This document shows positions 32,596-34,470 of a DNA stretch of 36,313 nt, piece by piece. The DNA is from a virus. Location: positions 1-36,313 of IMG/VR virus record IMGVR_UViG_3300008448_000287. One strand, written 5' to 3'. Position 1 is the stretch's first letter. Each line of letters starts with the position of its first letter. A program made the position numbers and the translations under genes. Under the pieces are notes generated by a model. It was not told where the DNA came from. It made no database searches and saw only the letters and a program-made list of their open reading frames with translations.

Positions 32596-33083
32596 TTTGC
32601 TTTTGGGATTGTGATTTCAACGATTGTTTTTGAGGTTCTTTTTGCCGGTAAGTAAGTCACTACTTCGCCTGTGTCGGGATCAACTACAGGAGTCGGACGA
32701 TGTAATGTCTTGATGAATGTTTCAACTTCCTTCATCTGATTTTTGATTTCCATCAGATGCTCATTATGCATATTCCAAATCTTGTTTTCGGAATAATCAT
32801 ACTTGACTCCTGCTTCCTTTCTTTTGAACTGAATGCCGTTCCTGATGACTCCGTTTTCGGCATCCTTGCCATAGACATCGATGTCATGCACCAGGTTATT
32901 TCTGATTTGTTCCATCGCTGATTCCAACGATTGAAGAAGAAATTCGACCTTACCGGCAAAGATGAAAGGATCAACTTTTCCTGAGTTGAATTCATCGAGA
33001 ATAATGGATGAGATATCTCTTACATGACCTTTGTCGATTGAATCAACACCATTGATGATCTGAATTACTGATTGGTTTTCCAT
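32592..33083 (-). CDS. Hypothetical protein, 163 aa
   Basis: It starts 19 bp inside the methyltransferase end and overlaps the MazG-like start (ATGA). It is acidic and helical, with a possible coiled coil (EFLLQSLESAMEQIRNNLVH and NEHLMEIKNQMKEVETFIKT), and ends in a Pro/Thr-rich tail (RPTPVVDPDTGEVVTYLPAK). No family is recognised. Coupling on both sides places it in the nucleotide/DNA modification group. Confidence 0.55.
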   Translation of the reverse strand: MENQSVIQIINGVDSIDKGHVRDISSIILDEFNSGKVDPFIFAGKVEFLLQSLESAMEQIRNNLVHDIDVYGKDAENGVIRNGIQFKRKEAGVKYDYSENKIWNMHNEHLMEIKNQMKEVETFIKTLHRPTPVVDPDTGEVVTYLPAKRTSKTIVEITIPKAK

Positions 33084-34135
33084 TGTTCTTGGTTCTGATA
33101 TTGTTCGATTGTTTTGAAGATTTGATATGCGACATTAGGAACTATTGCATTACCATAGCCCATCAAGGATTCTGTTCTCCATTTAGAAAAGGTAATTCCG
33201 TCCAATTTATCGGGAAGCCCATCATCTCTGCCACAAATCGGGGGTTGAGTTGGGAACTCTTCCCAGGTTGAGCGAATTGGTCGGCTAAATTGTCGGCTAT
33301 TGGTTTCAATCTCCCTCTCTTCTCTAAGGCTTCCGTTGAACTTGCTCCCTTGTAATTTTGAGTTGCAGGAGTCGGAAGTAAGCCATTCCTTGCCATTTGC
33401 CTTAATGACATCTGTAAATTGATCCCCTTGTTCGAATATTTCTCCTTGTCTTCTTCCCATTTCTCCGGAGTCCTTGAGCTGTTGTAGTCGAATTTTTGAG
33501 GTGTCGGGAGCATCCCCGAATAAAGAACCTGAATCAAAAGGCAATTGTACTTGTTGTTTGGATGTTGGGCATTGTTCTTGCCCAACTCCGTTCGAAGTTT
33601 TTGTCTTTCCTGATATTTCTCCGGTGTTTCGGGCATCTGAATTGTTCCTGGCGTGAGCAACAAACCAACATCTGATTCTTTGGTGAGGTGCGTTGACGCT
33701 TGCAGCAGGAAGTAATATCGGTTGTACTTCGTAGCCTTGATTTTCCAAGTCAGCACACACTTCTTCGAAGACCAATCCTTCTGACCAATTAGTAATGCCA
33801 TAAACATTTTCGCCCAAGACCCAACTTGGTTTAACTTCTCTAATTGCTCTAAGCATCGAAGGCCAGAGGTGTCGGCTGTCATCTTTCCCAAGTCTTTTTC
33901 CTGCTGAACTGTATGGCTGACATGGAAAGCCTCCGGTGATGATGTCAATTCTGTTTCTGTAAACAGAGAAATCTGTTTTGGTGATGTCTTCATGTCCTAT
34001 TGCGTTTGGGAAATGATATTTTAACACTTTTTGTGCGAAGGGATTGATTTCACACCATGCAACTGTATTCCATCCCATCCAATGAGCTGCGATAGAGAAT
34101 CCCCCTATTCCTTCGAACAATCCTAAATGGTTCAT
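33065..34135 (-). CDS. C5-cytosine DNA methyltransferase
   Basis: 356 aa. SAM-binding motif I is LFEGIGGFSIAA (6-17). The catalytic PCQ loop is GGFPCQPYSS (68-77) with Cys72, ENV is at 109-111, QRIRCW at about 152-157 and motif X GYGNAIVPNVAYQIF near 325-340. It methylates cytosine in a short target, probably protecting phage DNA from restriction; no cognate endonuclease is adjacent. The region between motifs VIII and X is low in hydrophobic residues and coincides with a second open frame of 276 codons on the same strand. It overlaps both neighbours (ATGA with the upstream gene). Confidence 0.92.
   Translation of the reverse strand: MNHLGLFEGIGGFSIAAHWMGWNTVAWCEINPFAQKVLKYHFPNAIGHEDITKTDFSVYRNRIDIITGGFPCQPYSSAGKRLGKDDSRHLWPSMLRAIREVKPSWVLGENVYGITNWSEGLVFEEVCADLENQGYEVQPILLPAASVNAPHQRIRCWFVAHARNNSDARNTGEISGKTKTSNGVGQEQCPTSKQQVQLPFDSGSLFGDAPDTSKIRLQQLKDSGEMGRRQGEIFEQGDQFTDVIKANGKEWLTSDSCNSKLQGSKFNGSLREEREIETNSRQFSRPIRSTWEEFPTQPPICGRDDGLPDKLDGITFSKWRTESLMGYGNAIVPNVAYQIFKTIEQYQNQEQWKTNQ
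33163..33993 (-). CDS. Overlapping gene within the methyltransferase gene (dual coding), 276 aa
   Basis: In the +1 frame relative to the methyltransferase, an ATG-started frame of 276 codons runs entirely inside codons ~48-324. The product reads as a real protein: MKTSPKQISLFTETELTSSP, VGSWAKMFMALLIGQKDWSS, KKCVLTWKIKATKYNRYYFL, three L-x-TP blocks (GLLLTPGT, GMLPTPQK, GLLPTPAT) and the end LNPRFVAEMMGFPINWTELP. I recall similar proteins (LLPTPTA..., LNPxFVExMMGFPxGWT) found overlapping dcm-type genes in other phages and bacteria. The function is unknown; it may act with the methyltransferase. Confidence 0.65.
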   Translation of the reverse strand: MKTSPKQISLFTETELTSSPEAFHVSHTVQQEKDLGKMTADTSGLRCLEQLEKLNQVGSWAKMFMALLIGQKDWSSKKCVLTWKIKATKYNRYYFLLQASTHLTKESDVGLLLTPGTIQMPETPEKYQERQKLRTELGKNNAQHPNNKYNCLLIQVLYSGMLPTPQKFDYNSSRTPEKWEEDKEKYSNKGINLQMSLRQMARNGLLPTPATQNYKGASSTEALEKRGRLKPIADNLADQFAQPGKSSQLNPRFVAEMMGFPINWTELPFLNGEQNP

Positions 34136-34470
34136 ATTTCCGATTGTTTCTCTGAGGTATAAGGAGTCAATTCAATCTTTCTCTTGATCCCTTGGAGATG
34201 ATGAAACAACTTGATGTTTATGCATTCGGCCAATGTCCTTCCTGCCGTTTGCAATTCCTGATTGATGTCAACTAAAAAGTAGTACATCCAATTCACGCAC
34301 ATCTCATTTATTTCATTTCGTTCGTGCTTAATTGACCTGGAGCGTCTGTTTATCGCATTAATGATAAACATGATTTCCATATCGTTGAATTCGTTCTTGC
34401 AAGCGAGAAATCTTTTCGATTTTTGGTCGTAAAACATATCACCGCCTTTGTTTTGAGATATATTTGCCAT
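34132..34470 (-). CDS. Hypothetical protein, 112 aa
   Basis: It overlaps the methyltransferase start (ATGA at 34132-34135) and begins after ACAGACCTC. It is a mostly helical protein with a basic middle (IINAINRRSRSIKHERNEIN) and a Trp/Tyr/Phe-rich segment (EMCVNWMYYFLVDINQEL). No family is recognised. As the gene before the methyltransferase it might regulate it or be an anti-restriction accessory; there is no direct evidence. Confidence 0.55.
   Translation of the reverse strand: MANISQNKGGDMFYDQKSKRFLACKNEFNDMEIMFIINAINRRSRSIKHERNEINEMCVNWMYYFLVDINQELQTAGRTLAECINIKLFHHLQGIKRKIELTPYTSEKQSEI

Follow-up and report, generated by a model that had tools for sequence, protein, structure and literature searches.

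A phage C5-cytosine methyltransferase gene with a nested +1-frame gene that probably encodes the second part of the enzyme

INTRODUCTION

The multispecific C5-cytosine DNA methyltransferases (C5-MTases) of Bacillus phages (SPR and phi3T) reportedly carry several tandem target-recognizing domains between motifs VIII and IX (Trautner 1996, cited in PMC12707154), and in M.EcoHK31I the gene of the small subunit is said to lie inside that of the large subunit, in another frame. M.EcoHK31I (YGGCCR) and M.AquI (CYCGRG) are cited as two natural two-subunit C5-MTases (PMC3404938). In M.EcoHK31I, the larger subunit contains motifs I to VIII and X and also holds the predicted recognition domain, and the smaller subunit contains motif IX (PMC3404938). 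M.AquI is naturally split as well, with motif IX in its second subunit (PMC3404938); its split falls within the variable region, and motif X is in the smaller subunit.

The window analyzed here, i.e., the whole stretch of DNA under study (36,313 bases), is a virus record (IMGVR_UViG_3300008448_000287) with a C5-MTase gene (here, alpha) that contains a second gene (here, beta) nested in its +1 frame. The pair resembles M.EcoHK31I, compared by description only, in that motifs I to VIII and X belong to the larger polypeptide and motif IX to the smaller one, and also in that the smaller gene is overlapped by the larger one in another frame, as is reportedly the case for M.EcoHK31I. It differs in that the recognition region is assigned here to beta and not to the larger subunit, in that the phage/prophage pair stands outside any restriction-modification system, and in the presence of 1 to 5 shuffled LPTP modules. 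In contrast to M.AquI, alpha retains motif X and the division follows the reading frame, and in contrast to monomeric M.HhaI and M.HaeIII, which are single chains with motif IX in frame, a nested gene is present. Like SPR and phi3T, these are phage C5-MTases, and their 1 to 5 LPTP modules may correspond to the tandem domains between motifs VIII and IX of those enzymes, but the modules lie in a separate overlapping frame and are candidate recognition units. The layout is known from M.EcoHK31I; what is new is how widely it is spread, in phages as well as prophages from several phyla, together with the evidence for a recognition region in beta and the shuffled LPTP modules.

RESULTS AND DISCUSSION

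A long +1 frame inside the C5-MTase gene

The plus strand of the window carries the terminase and structural genes, while RecT, small early genes, and the methyltransferase are on the minus strand. Beta has an ATG start, is offset by 142 nt from the dcm start, and lies wholly within the methyltransferase gene; the first-pass annotation had reported the same 276-codon frame with the same coordinates and start.

33065..34135, minus strand: alpha, C5-methyltransferase gene, 356 amino acids, with motifs I to VIII and X and no motif IX (PF00145, E value 7.7e-43; hhalign to M.HhaI 13-178 and 285-321 only; Foldseek to M.HhaI)
33163..33993, minus strand: beta, nested +1-frame gene, 276 codons, putative specificity/motif IX subunit (open in 207/207 loci; dN/dS-like values of 0.2 to 0.5 versus 0.84 to 0.91 in control regions; phrog_1008 match, E value 9.6e-19)

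The segments singled out in that annotation were all located in the beta product, namely, three L-x-TP elements (residues 112, 162, and 206), WKIKATKYNRYYF (residues 83 to 95), and the closing NPRFVAEMMGFPINWTELP (residues 250 to 268). With the alpha protein held fixed, 8.1 stops are expected across the beta span, and a +1 open stretch this long arose once in 20,000 synonymous codon-usage resamplings and never in 20,000 within-gene codon permutations. The longest +1 open run in the other long genes of the window is 104 codons.

Two further features of the window were noted. The alpha start codon and the stop codon of the upstream gene (34132-34470) share the sequence ATGA (34132-34135, minus strand), which suggests that alpha may be translationally coupled with that gene. 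On the plus strand (2010-2540), a short ParB_N protein, the N-terminal part of which matches the PADLOC type II methyltransferase model (E value 1.3e-11), is possibly a ParB-like piece of a kind usually fused to a methyltransferase.

Division of the conserved motifs between alpha and beta

The C5-MTase motifs and the regions between them are distributed over the two frames as follows.

33653..34135, minus strand: alpha motifs I to VIII, residues 1 to 161, catalytic domain (PCQ and ENV motifs; hhalign; AF2 pLDDT mostly at least 90)
33215..33607, minus strand: alpha linker, residues 177 to 307, disordered and neutrally evolving (pLDDT below 50; alpha dN/dS, 1.22)
33190..33264, minus strand: motif IX, read in the frame of beta (GKSSQLNPRFVAEMMGFPINWTELP) (hhalign to M.HhaI 266-296)
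33071..33187, minus strand: alpha motif X (GNAIVPN...) and C-terminal helices, residues 317 to 355 (hhalign to M.HhaI 285-321; pLDDT mostly above 90)

Alpha contains the SAM-binding and catalytic motifs I to VIII of the C5-cytosine DNA methyltransferases (PF00145), including PCQ and ENV. In hhalign, the alpha profile aligned with residues 13 to 178 of M.HhaI (motifs I to VIII; E value 2e-25), and the alpha C terminus aligned with residues 285 to 321 (motif X) only. Motif IX was absent from alpha's own frame and was found in the +1 frame instead: a beta-only profile aligned with M.HhaI residues 266 to 296, which correspond to motif IX (E value 4e-4), and none of 150 shuffled M.HhaI sequences reached this score, while against a monomeric C5-MTase profile the same place gave an E value of only 0.019. 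Beta residues M258, G259, F260, P261, and W264 are invariant. M.HhaI is thus matched by both products, in motifs I to VIII and X by alpha and in motif IX by beta.

AF2 models alpha residues 1 to 170 and 317 to 355 well and leaves residues 177 to 307 disordered, in agreement with the first-pass annotation, which had described the methyltransferase product of this stretch as low in structure; Foldseek aligned the alpha model with M.HhaI (E value 1.3e-14 over 164 columns). For beta, AF2 gave only a weak model (mean pLDDT, 67), with which a Foldseek search against the PDB returned no usable fold match.

Judged by the profile alignments, beta contains the C5-MTase motif IX that is missing from alpha. 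Because it carries this motif, beta is most likely an essential subunit and not a separate modulator. The role of beta had been called undescribed, which is only partly right, since the arrangement resembles that of M.EcoHK31I (PMC3404938); the accompanying suggestion that beta could modulate methylation or block restriction is likewise partly wrong for a protein with the motif IX absent from alpha.

Start and N-terminal segment of beta

33991..33993, minus strand: putative beta start codon, ATG (homolog ATG positions and local dip in the alpha synonymous rate)
33694..33867, minus strand: beta residues 43 to 100, constrained N-terminal segment overlapping the alpha core, with two predicted helices and an LTWK...YYF hairpin (NN/NS, 0.35 to 0.51; AF2 helices and strands)

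The first ATG of the homologs is located at -4, 0, or +1 codons relative to the beta start of the window in 156 of the 207 loci, and the alpha synonymous rate dips locally at this start. Constraint on beta is seen at the start, is weak at residues 13 to 42, and appears again from about residue 43 (NN/NS of 0.35 to 0.51 for residues 43 to 112); W83, L97, and R92 are invariant or nearly so, and residues 1 to 39 are disordered in the AF2 model. Because residues 13 to 42 are weakly constrained, the precise start of beta is uncertain.

The canonical motif order along the DNA would also be compatible with a programmed +1 frameshift near motif VIII, which would join the recognition region and motif IX onto the alpha N terminus in a product that reads I-VIII-recognition-IX and leave no separate beta. 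We regard this as quite unlikely, since constraint on the beta frame starts well upstream of motif VIII (residues 43 to 112), where a shift at motif VIII would not need it, since an ATG recurs near the same place in 156 loci, and since the fusion would be without motif X.

Distribution of the nested pair

Relatives of beta were detected in 58 phage records by tblastn, and profile searches found them encoded in at least 434 viral and 289 bacterial-genome stretches. The hosts and genomes include Bacteroidota, Bacillota (Paenibacillus and Lacticaseibacillus), a cyanophage, an actinobacterial phage, and Pseudomonadota members (Vibrio, Edwardsiella, Klebsiella, and Cronobacter phages and Escherichia coli prophages). 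No restriction gene was found in the E. coli prophages examined among the matches.

In every one of the 207 loci examined, beta and alpha overlap with beta in the +1 frame; beta is fully nested in 198 of them and free-standing in none. This bears out the first-pass annotation, according to which comparable proteins accompany other dcm-like genes in this way. Because the 207 loci were collected via beta, a search with alpha as the sole query served as the control; beta was present in all 27 loci found by alpha alone, two of which have a frameshift affecting both frames. In 11 host genomes, alpha-type genes lacking an in-frame motif IX are accompanied by beta, whereas the C5-MTases without beta in the same genomes are monomers, many of them with motif IX in frame.

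The existence of the nested family has previously been noticed in annotation: all 111 beta members matched phrog_1008 (“DNA methyltransferase”), and gp56 of Paenibacillus phage Shelly is already annotated as “g55 internal gene.” However, no mechanism, selection test, or subunit assignment is attached to these labels. No Pfam or NCBIfam family covers beta, the beta profile had no matches among PDB sequences, and a literature search, conducted largely outside subscription papers, found no description of the mechanism of the overlapping family.

The loose annotation of phrog_1008 and the lack of a Pfam or NCBIfam family would leave room for beta as an independent protein (a regulator or anti-restriction factor) that merely shares the DNA with alpha. 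The chance of this seems slim, given that beta holds the sole motif missing from alpha, at the canonical position, that it never occurs without alpha among the 207 loci, and that the monomeric MTase genes examined in the same genomes do not contain it.

Several loci show peculiarities of their own. In seven Bacteroides loci (L043, L047, L175, L177, L178, L180, and L181), alpha is broken by TGA only (two or three each, at five sites, mostly where the homologs have Trp) and never by TAA or TAG, and beta is open; pairwise changes in the alpha cores of these loci still look alpha-constrained. These TGA codons may reflect read-through/recoding or recent decay. The beta frame runs stop-free into a downstream DNA methyltransferase gene in Edwardsiella phage eiAU (L236, 1218-2640) and in a Rhodoplanes plasmid (L240, 1332-3051), where a beta-methyltransferase fusion or read-through is possible. 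In Cronobacter phage JC01 (L238, 1342-2316), the coding sequence annotated as “DNA methyltransferase” is the beta frame, and the alpha frame is unannotated.

Selection acts on different frames along the locus

Codon-position rates were obtained from DNA alignments of 90 independent pairs. At alpha codon positions 1/2/3, the rates follow the usual alpha pattern before the overlap (0.118/0.074/0.357) and after it (0.175/0.116/0.393). In the region separating motifs VIII and IX, the rates change to 0.355/0.241/0.213, and the fastest position is now the third position of beta codons. The switch occurs at P0002 residue 161, at the border of motif VIII and the linker, and is reversed at residue 321, near the beta stop at 324.

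The OLGenie-style dN/dS values (52 pairs) are simple pairwise counts, uncorrected for multiple hits or transitions, and the argument rests on contrasts between regions. In the alpha-only controls, dN/dS of the beta frame is 0.84 and 0.91. It is 0.47/0.34 where beta overlaps the core, 0.46/0.45 from the end of motif VIII to motif IX, and 0.36/0.21 at motif IX itself. For alpha, it is 0.12 to 0.16 in the control and core (core overlap, 0.16/0.12), rises to 1.22 [1.08-1.39]/1.21 in the region that separates motifs VIII and IX, and is 0.52/0.31 at motif IX. Both frames are thus constrained in the core overlap and again around motif IX. It follows from these regional values that both frames code in the core, that beta alone codes in the middle, and that alpha alone codes at the ends. 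The analysis demonstrates dual coding, locates the sites of selection, and assigns the motifs to their frames.

The frame-specific selection and the +1 nesting in every locus support long-term dual coding, as the first-pass annotation had proposed; neither +1 stops in homologs nor normal frame-0 synonymous variability was seen. Its view that the alpha stretch is constrained by the second frame has to be revised between motifs VIII and IX, where alpha is rather neutral (dN/dS of about 1.2). Because alpha is neutral and disordered there and beta is the selected frame, the recognition region is assigned to beta, which very probably supplies target recognition.

The total overlap and the little own constraint at beta residues 13 to 42 could be taken to mean that the +1 conservation is a by-product of the methyltransferase frame. 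Such a shadow frame is scarcely credible and was rejected by the selection tests, as substitutions flip to beta codon periodicity, alpha is neutral between motifs VIII and IX, and the frame is stop-free far beyond synonymous shuffles. An out-of-frame mobile insertion like the hidden HNH endonuclease of ShiLan, which likewise looks like a loop when translated with the methylase but encodes an enzyme in a different frame (PMC11855218), was also rejected and has virtually no chance of being correct, since beta matches no endonuclease family, no empty-site homolog exists among the 27 loci found by alpha, and motif IX is carried by beta.

LPTP modules of beta

33511..33660, minus strand: beta LPTP-type module 1, residues 112 to 161 (module family 3, 28 members)
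33379..33510, minus strand: beta LPTP-type module 2, residues 162 to 205 (77% identity to a module of locus L033)
33250..33378, minus strand: beta LPTP-type module 3, residues 206 to 248 (88% identity to module L128.3)

Each beta contains 1 to 5 L-x-TP segments with a median spacing of 43 residues. The segments form 84 families, many of which recur at more than one ordinal position, and they were seen in 136 different orders. With alpha-core identity as the background for module exchange, 24 pairs of segments share 75% identity or more despite alpha cores that are less than 60% identical, and 19 of these pairs are at different positions. Locus L033, one module of which is 77% identical to module 2 of the window, has an alpha core only 50% identical to that of the window. 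Loci L003 and L009 are 96% identical otherwise but differ by one whole module.

The gain, loss, and exchange of whole modules is the pattern expected of recognition domains, and the modules of about 43 residues are plausibly tandem recognition domains. As a tentative but serious possibility, beta may be an interchangeable array of tandem target-recognition modules in an overlapping frame, in which phages gain, lose, or swap modules to change or add methylation specificities. The outer frame would tolerate such swaps because alpha is merely a neutral linker there. If this is true, the split methyltransferase would be multispecific, and its specificity would evolve within the bounds of another gene.

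A C5-MTase probably divided between two frames

We consider it highly likely that a single C5-cytosine methyltransferase is encoded here by two overlapping frames, with alpha as the catalytic part and beta completing the enzyme. The motifs follow the canonical order along the DNA (I to VIII, recognition region, IX, and X), but translation of the +1 frame from an internal start codon would yield the recognition region and motif IX as a separate polypeptide, beta. Beta would then dock on alpha, where it would restore the small domain and select the target sequence; the enzyme completed in this way would most likely methylate the phage's own DNA against host restriction. We infer that both proteins are made and bind each other, that beta sets the specificity, and that the purpose is anti-restriction.

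As annotated, the “dcm” genes of phages and prophages in several phyla, including the E. coli prophages, appear to represent only half of an enzyme. Since the half for specificity is either overlooked or assigned to the wrong frame, cloning or activity prediction from annotation would fail. The locus also represents an unusually clean natural case in which two coding frames divide labor along one DNA stretch, each end being read by one frame and the middle being handed over, while modules recombine inside the overlap.
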